A DNA stretch of 29,647 nucleotides from positions 1 to 29,647 of IMG/VR virus record IMGVR_UViG_3300035181_000678; one strand, 5' to 3'. The notes under the pieces were generated by a model that saw only the letters and a list, made by a program, of their open reading frames with translations, made no database searches and was not told where the DNA came from. Origin of the DNA: a virus. Both the position numbers and the translations under genes were made by a program. Below, in pieces: positions 2 through 29,398 of this stretch. Within the stretch, counting starts at the first letter, position 1. Each line of letters starts with the position of its first letter.

Positions 2-2644
2 AAACGCAAGAAGAGCCTCGATTTTAAGGAGATGGCCGATGCGCTGTTGGCACGAGCCGAAACGCTGGTGCCGCAATGGCTGCCGGCCGGCAAGCGGCGC
101 GGTCATGAGTGGGTCTGTGGCTCGCTGAACGGCGGCGAGGGCCATTCGACCAGCGTCAACCTGGTGACCGGCCGCTGGGCTGATTTCTCAGGTGACGATG
201 CTGGCGGTGACCTGCTGTCGCTCTACGCGGCGATCCGTGGCCTGAAGCAAGTGCCGGCCGCGCGTGAGCTGCAGGCCGACATGGGCTGGCAGGCGCCGAT
301 CCCGGAGGCCACACCGAACAAGCCGAAGAAGCGCCGCAGCCTGTGGCGAACTTTCGACATGGTGCCCTCGCATGCGCCAGCCCAACTGACCGAGTGGAGC
401 TACAAGGACGACACGCAGAACCGCTGGGTCAAGCTGCAGGCGGTGCGCTCGTGGGCTTATCGGTTCAACGGTCAGCTGTGGGGCCATGTGTCGCGCTTCG
501 AGCGCATCGACAGCAAGGGCCAGTTGGTCAAGGACACGTTGCCGCTGACCTGGTGCGTCGATGAGTCGGACGACCAGCAGACGTGCACATGGCGCTGGAA
601 GATGTGGGAGGGCGCGCGGCCGCTGTACGTGCCGGCTGGGCGGATCAGCGCGGACCTCGGCACACCGGTCGTGGTGGTCGAGGGCGAGAAGTGCGCCGAA
701 GCGCTGTGGCAGCTGCTCGGGGATGAGTTCAATGTGGTGAGCTGGCCGGGCGGCGTGAACGGCTGGGTCAAGGCGCACTGGGAGTGGCTGGCGGGCCGGC
801 CGGTCGTGCTGTGGGCTGACACGGACAGCAAGCGCGTCAAGCTGACCAACGCGCAGCGTGAGGCTGGGGTTGATCCTGAGTCGATGCCGTACCTGCCGTG
901 GGCGGAGCAGCCCGGGGCGGCCGCCATGCTTGGCATCGGCCAGCTGCTGCAGCGCGAGCATGGCTGCACCGTGACGATGTGCCTGACCGAAGCGCCGGGC
1001 GTGATGCCCGACGGCTGGGACGTGGCCGATGCGATTGCCGATGGGTGGGATGCCGACCGTGTGCGGGCATTCATCGCTGATGTTGGGCCCGCTTTCGGCG
1101 AGGTTGATCGGCTCAAAACTGAGCCGATCTCCACGGCCGCCAGCGCCGCGCCGCCGTGGGTCGATGCCGACATACCGCTTGATGAGCTGACCGCCGCTGC
1201 CAATGCGCCGATCAGCCTGCCTGCTGTGGTGGCGCAGGAACCCCCGCCAGAGGGGGAGGGCAAGAAGCAAAAGCACAAGGAGCGGCCTGAGGGCTTCTGG
1301 CCGCTCGTGGACGATCTATCGGACCGGTTCACCTTGATCTACGGCACCGAGTCGTGCTGGGATGCGACGACGTCGATGCTGATCAAGGTGCCGCACATGC
1401 GGCTCGCCTTCGGCAAGGATCCGGTGAACATGTGGCTGTCGCGGCCGAGCCGGCGGATGATCAATCTGACCGACCTGGTGTTCGAGCCCGGTGTGGAGGT
1501 GGGTGAGCACCAGGTCAACATGTTCGAGGGCCTGGCCCTGGAGCCAGTGCCGTGCGTGCCGGCTGATGTCGATCCGATGTTGAAGCTGCTGCGCCATCTG
1601 TGCGCCCAGTCAGCCGAGCATGCGGATGAGGTGGACGAAATCGTGCACTGGCTGCTGTGCTGGCTGGCCCTGCCGCTGCAGCAGATCGGCACCAAGATGG
1701 CGACCGCACTGATCATGCATGGACCGCAGGGCTCCGGCAAAAACTTGTTCTTCGATGCCTGGCGCGACTTGTACGGCCACTACGGCAAGACCATCGGCCA
1801 GACCGAGATCGAGGACAAGTTCAACGAGTGGATCAGCTGCAAGCTGGCGTTTGTCGCCAACGAGGTGGTTAGTCGGCAGGAGATGTATCACCGCAAGGAC
1901 GCCCTCAAGATGATCGTGACCGAGGGCAAGGACTTCCCGATCCGGGGCATGCACACGCCGACTCGGTGGGAGCGCAACGCCGCGAACATCGTGTTCCTGA
2001 GCAACCAGCGTGTGCCGCTGGCCCTGGACGATGGCGACCGCCGGCACGTGGTGATCTACACGCCGCTCGCGGCTGACGATGAGCTGTACCGCGAGGTGCT
2101 GGCCTTTTTGGCGGCCGGCGGGCTGGCGAAGTGGCTGTACTACCTGCAGCACTACGACGTGGGCGACTTCCACGCCCATACCAAGCCCCCGATGACGCGC
2201 GACAAGCAGCGGCTGATCCAGGCGAGCTGGAAGGCCCCGGCCCGGTTTGCGCACGAGTGGATGGAAGGCTATCTGGAGCTGCCGGTGCGGGTGTGCAGTG
2301 GCGATCAGCTCTACCGGGCTTTCCAGCGCTGGTGCACGCGCTCAGGCGAGCGGTTTCCACCGAACCGGGACACGTTCACTGAGGAGGTGCACCGCTGGGC
2401 GGCCGAGACGGTCGAGCGTGATCTGGTGACGGGGCGCAGGGTGCCGCCGTGCATCGAATGCAAGCCGGTGCAGCACAAGGACGCGACGGGCAAGCGCAAG
2501 AGCATCCGCACCTGGATTCCGCATTCGTGCGAACCGCCGGACGGCACGAGCATGGGCGCGTGGGCGTTCGAGTCGGCGGCGATGTTCCAGTCTGATCTGG
2601 ACAAGTTCTGCCGTCAGCTGGGCTTCGGGGAGTCGGACGAATGA
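2..2644 (+). CDS. Phage primase-helicase (TOPRIM plus SF3/DUF5906-type helicase), 5' partial
   Basis: Replication initiation protein that should prime and unwind the phage origin. Counted from the in-frame ATG at 32, an N-terminal primase-like region is followed by a TOPRIM domain with VEGEK at about 216-220 and the acidic DTD at 263-265. The C-terminal superfamily 3 helicase domain has a Walker A GPQGSGKN at 564-571, a Walker B-like stretch (LAFVANEV) near 605-612, and a sensor asparagine in FLSNQ near 655-659. The frame is open to the left edge, and the codons before ATG 32 read KRKKSLDFKE. The apparent AAGGAG touches that ATG with no spacer, so the true start probably lies just outside the window. 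A Pro/Ala-rich linker near 365-415 separates the two halves. The stop lies just before a large inverted repeat that may be its target. Family assignment is firm; the exact subfamily (P4 alpha-like or DUF5906) is less certain. Confidence 0.9.
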   Translation, partial: KRKKSLDFKEMADALLARAETLVPQWLPAGKRRGHEWVCGSLNGGEGHSTSVNLVTGRWADFSGDDAGGDLLSLYAAIRGLKQVPAARELQADMGWQAPIPEATPNKPKKRRSLWRTFDMVPSHAPAQLTEWSYKDDTQNRWVKLQAVRSWAYRFNGQLWGHVSRFERIDSKGQLVKDTLPLTWCVDESDDQQTCTWRWKMWEGARPLYVPAGRISADLGTPVVVVEGEKCAEALWQLLGDEFNVVSWPGGVNGWVKAHWEWLAGRPVVLWADTDSKRVKLTNAQREAGVDPESMPYLPWAEQPGAAAMLGIGQLLQREHGCTVTMCLTEAPGVMPDGWDVADAIADGWDADRVRAFIADVGPAFGEVDRLKTEPISTAASAAPPWVDADIPLDELTAAANAPISLPAVVAQEPPPEGEGKKQKHKERPEGFWPLVDDLSDRFTLIYGTESCWDATTSMLIKVPHMRLAFGKDPVNMWLSRPSRRMINLTDLVFEPGVEVGEHQVNMFEGLALEPVPCVPADVDPMLKLLRHLCAQSAEHADEVDEIVHWLLCWLALPLQQIGTKMATALIMHGPQGSGKNLFFDAWRDLYGHYGKTIGQTEIEDKFNEWISCKLAFVANEVVSRQEMYHRKDALKMIVTEGKDFPIRGMHTPTRWERNAANIVFLSNQRVPLALDDGDRRHVVIYTPLAADDELYREVLAFLAAGGLAKWLYYLQHYDVGDFHAHTKPPMTRDKQRLIQASWKAPARFAHEWMEGYLELPVRVCSGDQLYRAFQRWCTRSGERFPPNRDTFTEEVHRWAAETVERDLVTGRRVPPCIECKPVQHKDATGKRKSIRTWIPHSCEPPDGTSMGAWAFESAAMFQSDLDKFCRQLGFGESDE

Positions 2645-2648
2645 GCCG

Positions 2649-2878
2649 CTGTTTCACCCCTGTTTCGATAGCGTTTCGCTGTAAGTCCTTGATGTTACTG
2701 ATGTTTCGCCTGTTTCGGGGGTCTCCTCGTGTGCGTGTGTGCGCAGGTGCGGGCGCGTGTGATTCACCACCAGCACACCACTTCTTTTTTTCATACGTGA
2801 GGACCTCCCCGAAACACCCGAAACATCAGTGACATCAACAACTTACGTCGAAACAGCGTCGAAACACCCCTGAAACAT
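2649..2878. repeat. Imperfect 80-bp inverted repeat built from TGTTTCG units (candidate replication origin)
   Basis: The left arm (2649-2728) and the reverse complement of the right arm (2799-2878) align without gaps, with about 61 of 80 positions identical. Each arm carries five GTTTC units, and the blocks TGTTTCGA, GTAAGT, TTGATGT and ACTGATGTTTCG are conserved. The 70-bp centre is GT-rich and then has a T-run with CATACGT. The arms could pair as a long cruciform or RNA hairpin, or act as oppositely oriented iterons for the replication protein encoded immediately upstream. This fills most of the 265-bp gap before the next gene. The repeat is directly visible; the origin role is inference. 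Confidence 0.8.
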
Positions 2879-2909
2879 CACCTCATTTCCTCAAGAAAGA
2901 AGAGAAAAA

Positions 2910-3206
2910 ATGGAAGAGAAGCAGGTAGATCAGAAAAAGCGCTGGGATTGGCTGCCGGCTCATATGCCGAAGGTCGCCCAGTTGATGGCCGAGCGCCGCG
3001 AGCAGCACGGTGCAGCATGGGTGGCAGAGTGCTGGAAGCGCTCAATGCAGGGCGAGCCGGGCTTTTTGTGGGCCGCTGAGGGGCCGATTGCGATCGGCAC
3101 GCCGGTGGATGGCGACCTGGTGCTGAAGCATTACGCGATTGCCGCCAAGTTCCCGGGCACGGCCACGCTGGTGCTGGCTGACCCGGTGCCCACGGGGGCT
3201 GCATGA
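2910..3206 (+). CDS. Small phage protein of unknown function
   Basis: This 98-residue protein has a charged, Lys/Glu-rich N-terminus (EEKQVDQKKR), then a Trp-containing stretch (WDWLPAHMP) and an Ala/Gly-rich C-terminal half. I recognise no domain, signal peptide or membrane segment. An A-rich purine tract (AAGAAAGAAGAG) ending shortly before the ATG can serve as ribosome binding site. Its stop overlaps the start of the Q-like gene by four bases (ATGA), so the two are probably co-translated as part of the delayed-early block between replication and late control. Codon use matches its neighbours. Confidence 0.75.
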   Translation: MEEKQVDQKKRWDWLPAHMPKVAQLMAERREQHGAAWVAECWKRSMQGEPGFLWAAEGPIAIGTPVDGDLVLKHYAIAAKFPGTATLVLADPVPTGAA

Positions 3207-3595
3207 GCGACCGCCACGCATGGGTCAAGGAGGCGCTGACGCAGTGGGCGGCATGGGCCGATGCGCGGGACAAGGGAGCGCTGGGCTACCCGTCGGTCAA
3301 CCTGCTGGCCCGATCTGGCGGCCGGAGCGCTTCGACGGACCATATTCCGGTGGGGCTGCAGCAGGCTGAGTCGGTCGATGCGGTGGTGCGCCAGCTGCGG
3401 CAGCACGACGGCGCGTTGTGGTGCGTGCTGATGTGTGCGTACCTGGGTGATCCTCGGGTGCGCCAGCACCGTCGGCGCGTGCTCGGCACTGCTGACATCG
3501 GCAGGGTGCTGCACATGCACCGGGACACGGTGCTGCGCAAGCTGAGGCAGGCGGAAGAGTGGATTGGCACTGCGCTGTGCACGATCCGCAGATGA
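3203..3595 (+). CDS. Phage antiterminator Q-like late regulator
   Basis: This 130-residue basic protein probably controls late transcription. The N-terminus (HAWVKEALTQWAAWADAR, then GYPSVNLLARSG) has the layout of PF06530-type Q antiterminators: a Trp-rich first helix followed by a GYP segment. Residues about 96-123 (GTADIGRVLHMHRDTVLRKL) form a convincing helix-turn-helix followed by an AEEWI helix, as in sigma-like Q proteins. The position supports this: it is the last gene before the long late operon and is followed by an AT-rich leader and a hairpin. It is translationally coupled to the preceding gene through ATGA. The family call rests on motif resemblance and position; a RinA/PhiLH-like late activator is the main alternative. 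Confidence 0.7.
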   Translation: MSDRHAWVKEALTQWAAWADARDKGALGYPSVNLLARSGGRSASTDHIPVGLQQAESVDAVVRQLRQHDGALWCVLMCAYLGDPRVRQHRRRVLGTADIGRVLHMHRDTVLRKLRQAEEWIGTALCTIRR

Positions 3596-10313: not shown

Positions 10314-12004
10314 CGCGCGGCCTCGACTACGGCAAGCTGGCCACACCAGGCAGCCCGATCCTGACCGCCTGGAAGGCTGACCGCGAACGCCAGCGCCGCG
10401 AGGAGGCTTCACAGGCTGAACTTCGCAAGGCCATGGCTGCCATGCGTGGCCATGCACTGCGCTCCGCACCGCGCCGCGCCAAGGCAGCGCCGACATATAT
10501 CCCTGAACCGGCGTTCGGCATCGTCAGCGGCGAGCGGGCCTTCACAGCAGGCGAGTCCGATCGCATCACCTCAGGTTGGACCAGCTACAGCACCGGCATC
10601 AATGCCGACCTGGAGCGCGCACTGCCGACGCTGCGCGCCCGCAGTCGCGACTGGGCGGTGAACACCGACTCCGGCCGGCGTTATGTGCAGCTGGTCAAAG
10701 ACAACGTCATCGGATCCAAGGCGCCACGCCTGCAGGTCCGCGCCACGCTGGCCAACAGCGACACGCTCGACGAGATCGCCAACACCGCCATCGAAACCCA
10801 CTGGGAGCGCTGGTGTGAGCGCGGCTTGTGCGATGTCAGCGGGATGCTCAGCTTCACGGACCTGTGCCGGACAAATGTGGCCGCAGCCGGCCGCGACGGC
10901 GAGTTCCTCGGCCGCCATGTACGCGATCGCAATCTGCCCTACGGCTACGCGCTGCAGGCGCTCGACGTCGATCGCCTCTACCCTGGCAACGGCGCGCTGT
11001 CGCAGGCGCAGGGTGACAACCTGATCCGCCTGGGCGTAGAGATCAACAAGTATGGTCGCCCGCAGGCCTACCACCTGTACAGCGCCCATCCTGGCGACGG
11101 TGCTGCCGGCCTGGCGCCGAAGCCCATGGCCGAGCGTGTCCCGGCGAGCGAAATCTGGCACGGCTACGTCGTTGAGCGGCCAGAGCAGGTGCGCGGCTAC
11201 CCGTGGACTGCATCGATCCTCAAGAGCGCCAACATCCTCGACAAGTACAAGGAATATGCCCTGGTCGCGGCCAAGATCGGCGCAGGCAAGATGGGCTTCT
11301 ACATCACCGACAAGGATGCCCCCAGCGGCGAGCCGCCCGACTTCGAAGACTACAAGGACGCCACCGGCGCGCTGGTCCAGGACGTCGAAGCCGGCATGCT
11401 CGAAGCGCTTCCGCCTGGCGTCACCTTTGAGACCTTCGATCCGGATTACCCGCACCAGAACTTCGGCAGCTTCGTCACCACGGGCCAGCACGGTATTGCC
11501 GCCGGCCTGAACGTCGCCCATCACAACCTGACCGGCGACATGACCGGCGTGAACTACAGCTCGGCGCGCATCGCTGAACTGGCTGAACGCGAGCACTGGC
11601 GCGGCCTGCAGCTGTGGTTCATCGAAGTGTTCGTACGTCCGGTGTTCCTGGAGTGGCTGCGCATGGCTCTGCTGACCCGCAGCATCACGCTGCCCAGCGG
11701 CGCAGCCCTGCCGGCCGATCGCTTCGACAAGTTCGCTCAAGCGGCCAGCTTCCAGCCACGTGGCTGGGCCTGGGTGGACCCGGAAGCCGACATCAAGGCC
11801 AGCTCGATGGCCATCGCCAACAACCTGCGCAGCCATCGCCAGATCACTGACGAACAGGGCGTAGATCTGGACACCGTCCTGACCGACGAAGCCGCGTTCT
11901 ATGCCCGCCGCAAGGCGTTGGGGCTACCCGACTTGGCCACCCAGACGCATGTGCTCAACACCCCTGCCGCAGCGCCCGCACCGGCACCGAAAGAAGCCCC
12001 ATGA
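10310..12004 (+). CDS. Portal protein, lambda B family
   Basis: This 564-residue portal is expected to form the dodecameric DNA channel at one capsid vertex. Family hallmarks include an N-terminal helical region, then SRDWAVNTDSGRRYVQLVKDN (about 112-132), an aromatic WERWCERGLCDVSG segment, AAGRDGEFLGRHV, and ALDVDRLYP. The C-terminal HHNLTGDMTGVNYSSARIAEL motif is characteristic of the PF05136 portal family, where it is followed by the FIEVFVRPVFLEWL helices. The Pro/Ala-rich end (TPAAAPAPAPKEAP) is disordered. Position after gpW-like and before protease/capsid genes is canonical. It overlaps both neighbours by ATGA, so expression is translationally coupled. Confidence 0.92.
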   Translation: MTRGLDYGKLATPGSPILTAWKADRERQRREEASQAELRKAMAAMRGHALRSAPRRAKAAPTYIPEPAFGIVSGERAFTAGESDRITSGWTSYSTGINADLERALPTLRARSRDWAVNTDSGRRYVQLVKDNVIGSKAPRLQVRATLANSDTLDEIANTAIETHWERWCERGLCDVSGMLSFTDLCRTNVAAAGRDGEFLGRHVRDRNLPYGYALQALDVDRLYPGNGALSQAQGDNLIRLGVEINKYGRPQAYHLYSAHPGDGAAGLAPKPMAERVPASEIWHGYVVERPEQVRGYPWTASILKSANILDKYKEYALVAAKIGAGKMGFYITDKDAPSGEPPDFEDYKDATGALVQDVEAGMLEALPPGVTFETFDPDYPHQNFGSFVTTGQHGIAAGLNVAHHNLTGDMTGVNYSSARIAELAEREHWRGLQLWFIEVFVRPVFLEWLRMALLTRSITLPSGAALPADRFDKFAQAASFQPRGWAWVDPEADIKASSMAIANNLRSHRQITDEQGVDLDTVLTDEAAFYARRKALGLPDLATQTHVLNTPAAAPAPAPKEAP

Positions 12005-14010
12005 GCATCTTCTCCCGATCGCACACGTACTGGTCGCGCTCCGATGCCCGTGGCCGCACTGAGCTAAGCACCGCACTTGCTGGCCTCAAGGTCGGCCAGC
12101 GCCTGCGTGTGGCCGATGTGCTCGGCCAGCTGCCGCCCCAGGTGGCCGCAGGCGCTGAGCGCGCCGACTTGCCCCCACCGCTGGTCGGATCGATCAGCAC
12201 AGCCATCCGTGCCGGCAGCATCGATACCGAGACTCGCGAGTGCCAGCTGAGCTTCAGCAGCGAGGAACCCTACGAACGCTGGTGGGGGATCGAGATCCTC
12301 GGTCATGACCCTGGCGAGGTGGACATGTCCTGGATCGCTTCCGGACGCGCGCCATTCCTGTCCGACCACGATACCTGCGAACAGATCGGCGTCGTCACCC
12401 GTGCTTGGATCAAGAACAAGCGCGGGTGCTCCGTGGTCCGGTTCAGCCGCAGCGACGAAGGCGAAGAAGAGATGCAGGACGTCATTGACGGCATCCGCGT
12501 CAACGTCAGCGTCGGCTATGAGATCCGAGAACTTGAGCTCGTCAAGAGGGACGGTGATCAGAGCACCTACCGAGTCACTGACTGGATGCCGTTGGAAAAC
12601 AGCCTGGTCGCCATCCCTGCCGACATGACTGTTGGCGTCGGCCGCAGCGCAGCGGCATCCATCCCAGCAACCCCGAAGGCCAAGGAGCCACCCATGCCCA
12701 CCGCTACCGCAGAGCCGAAGACCGGCGATCAAGCCTACCGCGACAACGTCGCGGCCATCATGACCTTGGCAACCAGCTACAGCCAGTTCATCAAGCCCGC
12801 CGATGTCGCGCGCGCTGTCAGCGAAGGGGCTGACGCCTTCAAGTTCCAGGAGCTGATCCTGCAGCGCATGCAGTCTGGCAGCACCGACGTGACCACTACC
12901 GCCGCACTGGGCGCCTCCCGCAAGGAGACTTCCCGCTACAGCTTCATGCGCGCGCTGCAGTCGATGATCCCCGGCAGCGGTGTCGATGGTGGCCTGGAGC
13001 GCGAGATGTCGCAGCAGATCGCAGGCACGCTCGGCCGCTCGGCCGAAGGCATCTTCATCCCGAGTGACATCTTCGCAGGCCGTCAGGTCAGCGCCGGGCC
13101 GGCCGATGCCAGCGGCCGCCGCGATTTCACAGTTGGCACCTCGACCGAAGCCGGCAACCTGGTGCAGACCGATGTCGCTGGCCAGCTCTTCACCGACGTG
13201 CTGCGCCCGGCGCTGGTGCTCGGCCGCCTCGGCATCACCATCCTGCCGGGTCTGCGCAGCAACCTGCTCATCCCGCGTAAGTCGGTCGCCGGCACGCTGG
13301 CGATGCTGACTGAAGTAGCGGCCGCGACCGAGACGCAACCCAATACCACGCAGGTCACGATGTCGCCCAAGCGCATCAGCGCCTTCGTCGATCCGAGCAA
13401 GCAAGCCATCATCCAGTCCGAGATTGGCATCGAAGGGATGATCCGCGATGACCTGCTCAGCGGCGCCGCAGTACTGATCGAGAGCCAAGGCATCAACGGC
13501 TCAGGAACCAGCCCGAATACGCGCGGCATCCGCAACGTCAGCGGCGTCGGCTCAGTGGTCGGCGGCGCCAACGGCGCCAATCTGGTCTGGTCGCACGTCA
13601 CGGGCCTGGAAGCGGCCTGCGCCAATGCCAATGCGGCCAGTACCGATCGCGCGGGTTACCTGATCAATACCAAGGCCGTCAATACCAGCAAGAACACCCA
13701 GAAGGCAGCCAACCTGCCGTTCATCTGGGACAACGGCGCGGCCCCCCTGAACGGCTACCGCGCAGGCATCTCCAACAACGTGCCGAGCAACTTGACAAAA
13801 GGCACCAGCTCGGGCGTGTGCTCGTCGGCCATCTTCAGCTCGGACTGGTCCATGTTTGTGCTGGGCCTGTTCGGTGGCCTCGACATCACGGTTGACCCGT
13901 ACACCCTGGCCACAACCGGCCAGATCCGCATCACGTTGAACCAGTTCATCGACTTCGCTTGCCGCCAGCCCGGTGCCTTTGCGGTGATGGATGACGCGCT
14001 CACGCCGTGA
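12001..14010 (+). CDS. Prohead protease fused to HK97-fold major capsid protein
   Basis: One 669-residue frame carries two head-morphogenesis activities. Residues 1 to about 215 resemble HK97-type (U35) prohead proteases: His123 in FLSDHDTCEQIG, Ser170 in VNVSVGYE, and the ENSLVAIPAD motif near 199-208 are all present. Residues from about 232 to the end are an HK97-fold major capsid protein. Typical features are an N-terminal scaffold-like helical region, then RPALVLGRLGITILPG, SNLLIPRK, the E-loop-like FVDPSKQAIIQ segment, the long helix region with GINGSGTSPNTRGI, and the C-terminal FIDFACRQPGAFAVM. An excellent Shine-Dalgarno and ATG at 12694 could give the capsid alone. The start overlaps the portal stop (ATGA). 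The fusion should self-process or be incorporated at low copy into proheads. Confidence 0.9.
   Translation: MSIFSRSHTYWSRSDARGRTELSTALAGLKVGQRLRVADVLGQLPPQVAAGAERADLPPPLVGSISTAIRAGSIDTETRECQLSFSSEEPYERWWGIEILGHDPGEVDMSWIASGRAPFLSDHDTCEQIGVVTRAWIKNKRGCSVVRFSRSDEGEEEMQDVIDGIRVNVSVGYEIRELELVKRDGDQSTYRVTDWMPLENSLVAIPADMTVGVGRSAAASIPATPKAKEPPMPTATAEPKTGDQAYRDNVAAIMTLATSYSQFIKPADVARAVSEGADAFKFQELILQRMQSGSTDVTTTAALGASRKETSRYSFMRALQSMIPGSGVDGGLEREMSQQIAGTLGRSAEGIFIPSDIFAGRQVSAGPADASGRRDFTVGTSTEAGNLVQTDVAGQLFTDVLRPALVLGRLGITILPGLRSNLLIPRKSVAGTLAMLTEVAAATETQPNTTQVTMSPKRISAFVDPSKQAIIQSEIGIEGMIRDDLLSGAAVLIESQGINGSGTSPNTRGIRNVSGVGSVVGGANGANLVWSHVTGLEAACANANAASTDRAGYLINTKAVNTSKNTQKAANLPFIWDNGAAPLNGYRAGISNNVPSNLTKGTSSGVCSSAIFSSDWSMFVLGLFGGLDITVDPYTLATTGQIRITLNQFIDFACRQPGAFAVMDDALTP
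12694..14010 (+). CDS. Nested in-frame product: major capsid protein alone
   Basis: AAGGAG at 12682-12687 sits 6 nt before an in-frame ATG at 12694, exactly at the boundary between the protease and capsid domains. Initiation there would give a 438-residue capsid protein starting MPTATAEPKTGDQ, near the usual HK97-fold size. Most other starts in this operon have weaker sites, so this sequence is notable inside a coding region. The arrangement parallels lambda C/Nu3, where a smaller protein arises from an internal start in the protease gene. The signal is directly visible; its use is inferred. Confidence 0.65.
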   Translation: MPTATAEPKTGDQAYRDNVAAIMTLATSYSQFIKPADVARAVSEGADAFKFQELILQRMQSGSTDVTTTAALGASRKETSRYSFMRALQSMIPGSGVDGGLEREMSQQIAGTLGRSAEGIFIPSDIFAGRQVSAGPADASGRRDFTVGTSTEAGNLVQTDVAGQLFTDVLRPALVLGRLGITILPGLRSNLLIPRKSVAGTLAMLTEVAAATETQPNTTQVTMSPKRISAFVDPSKQAIIQSEIGIEGMIRDDLLSGAAVLIESQGINGSGTSPNTRGIRNVSGVGSVVGGANGANLVWSHVTGLEAACANANAASTDRAGYLINTKAVNTSKNTQKAANLPFIWDNGAAPLNGYRAGISNNVPSNLTKGTSSGVCSSAIFSSDWSMFVLGLFGGLDITVDPYTLATTGQIRITLNQFIDFACRQPGAFAVMDDALTP

Positions 14011-27087: not shown

Positions 27088-27629
27088 GGTTGGCTCCGGT
27101 ACAGCTCAGCGCCGGCGACGTCGCCGGGCTCGGTGGTCTGGGTCTGGATGCGATGGCCAAGCCAATCGGCATCATGGCGCAGCTCGATGGCCAAGCCGGC
27201 ATGCGCGCTGACCAGGTCAGCAGCCTCGCCGACAGCTTGCTCGATGGCCATGGCGTAGCGCTCGTTCCAGCGGTAGCCGGTCAAGGCCATCTGGTGCACG
27301 CTGCGCAGCGCGCCGTGCAGGCGACGTGTGAGCAGGTCAGCCGGACCACACAAGCGCATCTGGACACTCGCGCCGAGACCGATCTGCCAGGCCAGTTCAG
27401 CCAGGTCGCCCGGCACTTTGGCGCCATGCTCCAGGCAGTACACCGCGATGCGGGTAGTGCGCACTTGGCTGCGCATAGCCTCATCGACCTCGGCCAGCGT
27501 GCGGGCCCGCTGGAGCCACTGCGGGCGTAGATCGGCAGCAGTGACGCCTAGCGGGTAGGGCGATGCAGCAGCTGCGCCCAGGCAAGCCTGGGCGGCGCTG
27601 CTGAGGGGGCTCAGCTGCCGGCGGGTCAT
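27084..27629 (-). CDS. Unknown phage protein coupled to the ParB-like gene
   Basis: A 181-residue mostly helical protein with no domain I recognise. ATG 27629 (MTRRQLSPL) overlaps the stop of the ParB-like gene as ATGA and is preferred; the frame continues upstream only as an antisense-like extension. Ala/Arg-rich helices (QWLQRARTLAEVDEAMRSQV, ARTTRIAVYCLEHG) and a basic C-terminus suggest a regulatory or nucleic-acid-associated role. Its stop overlaps the HTH gene start. It may be a partner of the ParB-like protein because of the strict coupling. Confidence 0.75.
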   Translation of the reverse strand: MTRRQLSPLSSAAQACLGAAAASPYPLGVTAADLRPQWLQRARTLAEVDEAMRSQVRTTRIAVYCLEHGAKVPGDLAELAWQIGLGASVQMRLCGPADLLTRRLHGALRSVHQMALTGYRWNERYAMAIEQAVGEAADLVSAHAGLAIELRHDADWLGHRIQTQTTEPGDVAGAELYRSQP

Positions 27630-29398
27630 TTCACCAGCCCCGCGACAAAATCGTTGAGGCTGCCACCGGCATCTATCTCGGCCCGGAGCCACTTCGGCAT
27701 CAAGCCCTTGCCGCTCCAGGCCTCACCGGTGTCCGGATGTCGGTACGCGACAGGGCGAGACTGGCTTCCGGCCGTGGCCTGCGGCCAGCGTAGTTCGATC
27801 TGCTGCACGACTTCTTCCAAGTGCCCGCCGTCATCAGTCCAGAGCAAAGCTTGGCTGATGGCGCAAGCCACAGCGATGCGGCCGAGTTCGTCGGGAGATA
27901 GGTCTGCCAGCTGCTCGATGATGTCTTGGCACACCAAGACACCGCCAGTGGTGTCCAGGCCGATGAGTTCCTGGGTACTGCGGCGCGATGTGCAAGCCAG
28001 CGCAGCGCAGACCCAGACCAGATCAACCGTTTCACGGCCATCTCGGCTGCGCAGCACTCTGTGCGCCAGGCGGTCCAGGATGGCGTTCGTTGCAACGGCT
28101 GGATCATCGCCACTGTCGATTTCCCCCGCCCCCCCGTCGTGTTCCTGCGCGTCAGTTTTCTTGCCATCGATGACTGTGACAGGGCCACTGGATTCCAGAC
28201 TGTGGTCCCGCGCAAGCGCGGGGTTATCCAGTTCGACACTTCCGGCCTTACGGCCGGATTCAGCCAGGGGTTCGACGTGGGTTCGGTAAAGTGAAACGAG
28301 TTTGTCCGCTTGATCCGTTGAAATCATTTGAATGATCTGCGGGGGCATGAACGGATGCTTGGTATTGTTGATAAGCACATAAGTCAGCAAATGCTCGTAT
28401 TCGCTGGCGTCTGCGGACGATGCCATAAGCCGATCGCGCAGCACGTTGTACGAAAGCATGCCGGGCCGGTTGTTCCAGGTGCGCCAATACCCAGTAGCAT
28501 CGTTTTCTGATTCAAATTCAAGAATGTCAAACCCTTGGGCGGCATGCTCTCCAAGTTTCCCTCTGAAATGGGCCAGGCGTTTTTGCTTGAAGCAGTCGAT
28601 GTTCGTGCAGACGTCTGGATTGCCTCCGGTGTCGGTCGGGTCGTTGCCGCTGCGATACCTGCATGAAAAGCAGTCTCCAGCCGACTCCAGCAAGGTGGCA
28701 TCTTTCATATCCCAGCCGGCGTGGCGCTTGAGGTCGGTGGCGTAGTCGGCAGCAATGCGCTGCTGCGCAATGCGGAAGCTCACGCCCTGCAAGTCAGCTG
28801 CGGCCTTGATCTGCAGCTTGGGGCTGGCGATGCGGGTGATGAGCAGGGCCACTTCAGCATCAAGCTTGCCGCTGCGTTGCATGGACTTGACTTCAGGGGT
28901 CAGCTCGGCAGCCATGCGCATGCGGCCGTAGACGTAGCTGCGCGTCTTGCCGGTGCGGGCCATGATCTGCTCGGCGGTCATGCCGTGCTGCTGCTTGAGG
29001 TAGAGCATCGCAGCACCTTCGTCCACGGCTGCGACGCCTTCGCGCTCCAGGTTCTCGTGGATTTGAGCCTCAACGACTTCGGTCTCAGTCATCGCCTTGA
29101 CCATGCAAGGGATGGTGTCCAGCCCTGCGCGTTTGGCGGCCATCCAGCGGCGGTGGCCGAACACGATTTCATAATCTGGTGCGGTGTTTACACCAATTTC
29201 ATCATCTTCCGCATATCTGGCGATATTGATTTGCAGCAGGGGCCGCACCAGGATGGGTTCCATGATGCCCTGGCTCAGGATGCTGTTGGTCAGCTCGTCA
29301 AGCGACTCGTCGCTGCAGGACTGGTGGTCGGGTGAGCGCGGGTTGTACCGCGATGGCGCCAGGCGCTGCGGGTGGATGTAGGTGATGGTGGTCGTCAT
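27626..29398 (-). CDS. ParB/RepB/Spo0J-family protein with cysteine cluster
   Basis: A 590-residue ParB-fold protein. The N-terminal domain has the nucleotide-binding GHRRWMAAKR box (81-90) and ENLERE box (115-120), which in ParB proteins bind CTP. A KorB-like helix-turn-helix (HGMTAEQIMARTGKTRSYVYGRM, about 138-160) follows. A four-Cys cluster (243, 246, 264, 269) fits a zinc site seen in plasmid ParB relatives. Beyond about 290 the protein is helical, with an acidic linker (KKTDAQEHDGGAGEIDSGDD) and a long C-terminal domain of unknown role. No ParA partner lies in the window, so it may partition a plasmid-like prophage or act as a regulator or nuclease. The start ATG 29398 overlaps the upstream gene as ATGA. 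Confidence 0.88.
   Translation of the reverse strand: MTTTITYIHPQRLAPSRYNPRSPDHQSCSDESLDELTNSILSQGIMEPILVRPLLQINIARYAEDDEIGVNTAPDYEIVFGHRRWMAAKRAGLDTIPCMVKAMTETEVVEAQIHENLEREGVAAVDEGAAMLYLKQQHGMTAEQIMARTGKTRSYVYGRMRMAAELTPEVKSMQRSGKLDAEVALLITRIASPKLQIKAAADLQGVSFRIAQQRIAADYATDLKRHAGWDMKDATLLESAGDCFSCRYRSGNDPTDTGGNPDVCTNIDCFKQKRLAHFRGKLGEHAAQGFDILEFESENDATGYWRTWNNRPGMLSYNVLRDRLMASSADASEYEHLLTYVLINNTKHPFMPPQIIQMISTDQADKLVSLYRTHVEPLAESGRKAGSVELDNPALARDHSLESSGPVTVIDGKKTDAQEHDGGAGEIDSGDDPAVATNAILDRLAHRVLRSRDGRETVDLVWVCAALACTSRRSTQELIGLDTTGGVLVCQDIIEQLADLSPDELGRIAVACAISQALLWTDDGGHLEEVVQQIELRWPQATAGSQSRPVAYRHPDTGEAWSGKGLMPKWLRAEIDAGGSLNDFVAGLVK

Follow-up and report, generated by a model that had tools for sequence, protein, structure and literature searches.

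The window, by which we mean the whole stretch of DNA analyzed, is a 29,647-bp IMG/VR viral record. It encodes terminase gpA, portal, capsid, tape measure, and minor tail proteins as well as an integrase, an excisionase-like protein, and a ParB-like protein. The record is a phage, not a satellite, and the PICI-as-satellite criterion (no full structural gene set) is not met. At positions 12001-14010 (+), a 669-aa protein carries its capsid domain in the C-terminal half only, and its N-terminal half may be a fused maturation protease. The ParB-like protein (27626-29398, -) is an unusual fusion, in which ParB_N and HTH_ParB are joined to an H-NS DNA-binding domain (PF00816) at the C terminus. The primase-helicase gene has a reading frame open to the left edge of the window (Table 1). 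Its product comprises a TOPRIM-like N-terminal half and a DUF5906/PF19263 superfamily-3-type helicase half beginning at about position 1289, and the helicase meets the family criterion with a PF19263 match of 58.5 bits against a curated cutoff of 27.6. A large inverted repeat adjoins the stop codon of this gene, and on its 3' side are a small gene and then a Q-like antiterminator gene. The related phages VarioGold and H4907 likewise have a Q-type gene a short distance beyond the array.

Table 1. Coordinates of the features at the primase-helicase gene and the adjoining inverted repeat
Feature	Position	Strand	Basis or remark
Primase-helicase gene	32..2644	+	PF19263 E 1.3e-15; PHROG DNA primase families; presumed initiator
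Helicase C-terminal domain (helices and beta hairpin)	2219..2641	+	AlphaFold pLDDT 89.6; proposed iteron-reading domain
Left arm, six unit slots	2640..2728	+	Arm alignment
Iteron slot L1, TGTTTCA	2650..2656	+	Slot scan
Iteron slot L2, TGTTTCG	2661..2667	+	Slot scan
Iteron slot L3, CGTTTCG	2672..2678	+	Slot scan
Degenerate iteron slot L4, TGTTACT	2693..2699	+	Full unit in L023, L026, L029
Iteron slot L5, TGTTTCG	2702..2708	+	Slot scan
Iteron slot L6, TGTTTCG	2711..2717	+	Slot scan
Core between iteron sets, 92 bp	2718..2809		Gap between innermost units
Alternating tract CGTGTGCGTGTGTGCGCA	2729..2746		Longest such tract in whole window
T7 tract in core	2785..2791	+	Sequence
Right arm, six unit slots, mirrored	2799..2887	-	Arm alignment
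Iteron slot R6 (CGAAACA on +)	2810..2816	-	Slot scan
Iteron slot R5	2819..2825	-	Slot scan
Degenerate iteron slot R4 (AGTGACA on +)	2828..2834	-	Slot scan
Iteron slot R3	2849..2855	-	Slot scan
Iteron slot R2	2860..2866	-	Slot scan
Iteron slot R1 (TGAAACA on +)	2871..2877	-	Slot scan
Q-like antiterminator	3203-3595	+	PHROG 79; two genes downstream of array

The original prediction described two 80-bp arms aligning at 61 of 80 positions, each with five GTTTC units in fixed spacing. Both statements were borne out, and the ungapped inverted repeat in fact covers 89 bp per arm (68/89 matching), extending back into the primase stop codon. GTTTC starts at 2651, 2662, 2673, 2703, and 2712 in the left arm, and GAAAC at 2811, 2820, 2850, 2861, and 2872 in the right arm. 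A sixth, degenerate slot (TGTTACT at 2693 on the left, TGTCACT at 2828 on the right) joins the five TGTTTCG-like slots of each arm and completes a spacing of 11-11-21-9-9 that is mirrored in the opposite arm. At 10.5 bp per turn, we infer that this spacing places all slots on approximately the same face of the helix. The palindrome score of 47 was the best in the 1-kb neighborhood; the highest score among 100 Markov shuffles was 16, and the second-best score across the whole window was 17. Folding prediction, which had been suggested as a check, gave a strong fold, with z-scores of -9.9 (RNA) and -11.0 (DNA). The two arms agree at 34 of 35 unit positions and at 34 of the 54 others. The differences thus cluster between the units, as had been claimed, but the spacers still match at 63%, well above chance, so that in the window's clade the palindrome exceeds the units alone.

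Loss of the palindrome in close relatives had been named as an outcome that would refute the prediction. Two of the closest loci (L001 and L002) have a helicase identical to that of the window, and in L003, whose helicase is 90% identical, the whole array is kept. In the alignment with L003, the unit sites are unchanged except for the last base of an outer slot (TGAAACA versus CGAAACA), and the substitutions are confined to the spacers and the core. The left-arm spacers at 2687-2688 and 2709-2710 differ from L003, where TG and GG complement the right arm; this complementarity suggests either occasional sequence exchange between the arms or weak selection on pairing, which could not be distinguished. 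The same arrangement was found with TGTTACGCG units in L004 (51%) and with GGGTGTCGC units in L006 (35%), and a distinct, phage-specific unit follows immediately on the primase gene in Stenotrophomonas phage S1, Pseudomonas phage Meadow, and phages H4907, PG1, pAN, Mcat4, and KT1.

With an alignment query, 160 further loci were collected, giving a total of 165, some of which are near-duplicates. Arrays were identified by a blind 7-mer search of the 320 bp after the stop codon, with significance at p<=0.05. A significant array 3' of the DUF5906 gene was present at 150 of the 165 loci, with both orientations in 143. At least five copies of a 7-mer occurred at 127 of the 165 loci; no window in the four control sets (146 to 172 loci each) had as many. 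The filtering out of two-letter words is the sole reason why two loci (L014 and L017) fail the 7-mer test, and their arrays are evident in the sequence and in a motif scan. In the window the array begins right at the stop codon of the primase gene, and in relatives it begins no more than about 100 nt away. The 11-11-21-9-9 spacing is shared, within 1 bp, by TGTTTCG in the window, TGTTACGC in L023 and L029, and TCTCCCG in L026, and the TGTGCGGG group has a 9-12-12-32-9 frame. Six was the commonest number of sites per arm among 100 well-defined arrays (left in 43, right in 39). Divergence was 7.8% in the units versus 18.3% at the other positions of the region. At the level of sequence, then, the unit varies by lineage while the layout persists. 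This retention of the layout with other units at about 90% of the 165 loci favors the predicted protein-binding iterons, although there are no binding data. When PF19263 members were sampled independently and more broadly, from other classes and bacterial groups, significant arrays were found in 16 of 46 cases.

Many arrays (L013, L014, L017, L093, L150, and others) have a single reversed unit between the outer and inner groups, which gives small local hairpins and is possibly a second conserved feature. VarioGold (L010, 7141-7490) and Aval (L011, 7295-7519) have a similar TOPRIM half and a different, VapE-looking helicase half; 3' of the gene, they carry short opposed repeats (TGTCCAC and TCCAGG) and alternating CG-rich runs.

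The helicase half was modeled with a pLDDT of 89.5. The model matched the NrS-1 C-terminal region (E 5e-19; 6k9c is the closest solved structure) and the SaPI5 primase-helicase (E 1.6e-9). A fold search with the isolated C-terminal domain gave no significant match, only weak ones of winged-helix type with E values above 0.1. We divided the helicase into four parts (D5N, AAA, middle, and C-terminal) and regressed unit similarity between loci on the identity of each; in a partial Mantel test, too, unit sequence tracked the C-terminal domain. The regression, like the core and tract-position statistics given below, used 137 loci with less than 95% helicase identity or subsets of these. The C-terminal domain was the only part with clear weight (standardized beta, 0.34; bootstrap interval, 0.25 to 0.43), and the intervals for the D5N, AAA, and middle parts included zero. 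However, the C-terminal domain also evolves fastest among these parts, which may favor it in such a test, and the regression is therefore support rather than proof. We propose, without binding data, that the C-terminal domain reads the iteron units.

The most unusual part of the locus is the alternating purine-pyrimidine core, which the original prediction missed. Across loci, the steps of the tract are mostly CG, TG, and CA. At 109 of 135 loci (3.4 expected), the longest alternating tract of the fetched locus was the one in the core, 40 to 220 nt after the stop codon. In 71% of the arrays there was an alternating run of at least 16; the corresponding share of the 3646 control windows was 0.27%, and the 73 non-coding-like gaps had none. 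In 28 close pairs, we counted 64 transitions and 10 transversions within the tract, versus 31 transitions and 39 transversions in alternating runs of neighboring coding sequence (Fisher p 8e-8; 2e-8 with roles reversed). Since transitions keep alternation and transversions break it, this pattern indicates that alternation itself is maintained. Alignment in simple sequence is a caveat for such counts, but an alignment error that keeps phase would still imply that alternation is kept. The window and L003 have no substitution in the 18-nt tract in their alignment, but one insertion. Across the family, the long alternating tract is under selection and satisfies the sequence criterion for a Z-DNA element, while the formation of Z-DNA is itself inferred. 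The tract is short in some members, e.g., L015, and absent from the satellite EcCICFT073. Runs of at least 12 were found in 14 of 46 members of the PF19263 sample from other groups, compared to 5% in controls, so that the tract is neither confined to the window's clade nor universal.

Other properties of the core were considered as well. An AT-rich core was expected but not found; the mean core AT was about 0.43 (aligned on the right-hand unit), slightly above the AT of the locus. A T-tract near the right arm seemed promising as a family-wide feature, but only 31% of the cores have at least five T. There was little support for AT-rich DNA replacing the tract in low-GC phages (Spearman 0.13, p 0.13).

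An origin beside the replication gene had been proposed at the outset, and this is supported by a tested origin with the same layout and helicase family. A rep-ori segment of EcCICFT073, an E. coli satellite, sustained plasmid replication, and its origin has two iteron sets flanking an AT-rich region (PMC6092414). In EcCICFT073, we found a PF19263 helicase (5e-10) and opposed TGTCTACC units in the gap 3' of the helicase gene. When the window helicase and the EcCICFT073 protein were compared directly, the similarity was weak by BLASTP (0.006 over 37 residues, a single comparison) and by hhalign (probability 0.9%, E 0.058), and the kinship therefore rests on the shared above-cutoff match to PF19263. 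In SaPI Rep and Cch2, a C-terminal domain binds iterons downstream of the protein's own gene (PMC7581432). GC skew across the window fragment showed no turn at the array, and no binding or replication data for these phages were found.

We conclude that the inverted repeat is very probably the phage's replication origin, of a SaPI/PICI-like kind with opposed hexamers and a Z-prone core; both origin function and Z-DNA are inferred. Facing sets of about six putative landing sites around an alternating core recur, with different site sequences, in well over a hundred related viruses. In the proposed mechanism, the primase-helicase encoded upstream would bind the TGTTTCG units via its C-terminal domain, and the six roughly helically phased slots of each arm would seat one hexamer, placing two opposed hexamers on either side of the core. 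This seating is inferred from the fit of six sites per arm and two arms. The alternating core, which is predicted to be prone to Z-DNA under negative supercoiling, may serve as an opening or torsion-absorbing element and stands where SaPI/PICI origins have an AT-rich segment. Both helicases would then load onto the opened strands, with forks departing bidirectionally.

The palindrome could instead be a transcribed RNA hairpin or an extruded DNA cruciform that regulates the Q-like antiterminator and the late genes. The antiterminator gene is just downstream, the predicted fold is very strong (z about -10), and matching extends to the spacers within the window's clade (33/54 in L109, similar to the 63% of the window). 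In distant relatives, however, the spacers are not palindromic (8/59 in L013, 5/26 in L089, and 7/24 in L009) and unit orders vary, e.g., >>><>><<<<>>> in L014. A long hairpin is therefore not the conserved feature, whereas units, spacing, and core are kept. Given also that an Rfam search of the region was without a match and that the unit sequence tracks a helicase domain, we consider regulation by a hairpin or cruciform very improbable. Phased repeats are typical of operators and centromeres too, and the window encodes the ParB-like protein with an H-NS-type C-terminal domain, so that the array, rather than being an origin, might be the operator of a transcription or partition factor such as this one. 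We find this hardly credible, as the array accompanies the DUF5906 gene in many phages and satellites, the units follow the helicase C-terminal domain, and the tested EcCICFT073 origin has the same layout in the same place.

A further possibility accepts the origin but takes its alternating core as a GTG priming zone for the primase rather than as a Z-DNA element. It competes with only one part of the preferred explanation, and our estimate for it is not exclusive of the others. The NrS-1 and pRN1 prim-pols recognize 5'-GTG-3' (PMC8718748), and GTG exceeds CAC in the tracts (200 versus 119). However, the 64:10 ratio shows tolerance of transitions, which may abolish a GTG while leaving alternation intact, and not of transversions. 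The tract also accompanies both types of primase half, TOPRIM in the window and Prim-Pol in L014. Maintained alternation points to a structural role, for which Z-DNA formation is an inferred candidate, more than to GTG priming, which we regard as unlikely but still deserving of consideration.

Returning to the origin with facing hexamers, we suggest, with somewhat more doubt than confidence, that it represents a widespread class of phage origins with head-to-head hexamers, six-site arms, and lineage-specific units that the helicase C-terminal domain reads, opening at a selected Z-DNA-forming tract and not at an AT-rich element. In the literature searched, which left out most subscription journals, we found no description of an alternating origin core or of this origin type in phages. 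The layout occurs in many full-size Proteobacteria phages, and a single rule suffices to locate it, namely to search the DNA just beyond the 3' end of the DUF5906 gene. Its numerous natural pairs of unit and C-terminal domain are a ready data set for a DNA recognition code, and the selected alternating core makes the long-standing question of whether Z-DNA has a part in replication initiation directly testable in small phage origins.

Several known systems share parts of this arrangement. In the SCCmec Cch2 origin, too, iterons follow closely on the helicase gene and are recognized by its C-terminal domain, but these are three direct repeats, and opposed six-site arms and an alternating core are not described in the part of that source available to us (PMC7581432). 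The NrS-1 primase-polymerase is the nearest in solved structure to the window helicase half, but its proposed initiation is at two TTTGGTTA copies in the genome center and not at a 3' iteron array. In plasmid iteron origins of the RepA/RepE type, the initiator likewise binds phased short repeats, but these are usually in direct orientation next to an AT-rich element, and the helicase is a separate host protein. The window differs from these in its opposed arrays and in an initiator that is itself a helicase.

The PICI/SaPI origins (EcCICFT073, SaPIbov1, SaPI1, and SaPI5) share the site directly 3' of the initiator helicase gene and opposed sets of short iterons around a core, with an element-specific iteron sequence. 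The 3' location agrees with these origins, and the two opposed iteron sets are seen in the mirrored slots of the window and at the 143 loci with both orientations. The head-to-head arrangement is thus present as predicted but is not, as had been supposed, unlike known origins, since SaPI/PICI origins have one. The initiators are also alike, being of PF19263/D5 type in EcCICFT073 and matching the window helicase structurally in SaPI5. The window-type arrays differ in occurring in full-size tailed phages and prophages, in having six sites per arm most commonly across the set of loci, and, in the window's clade, in their very regular spacing and mirror symmetry with spacers that are palindromic too. 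The criterion of an AT-rich region between the iteron sets (PMC6092414) was tested and not met, as a selected alternating, G+C-rich tract is found there instead. We therefore suggest that the origin would work like a PICI origin but do not file it as a member of that group.
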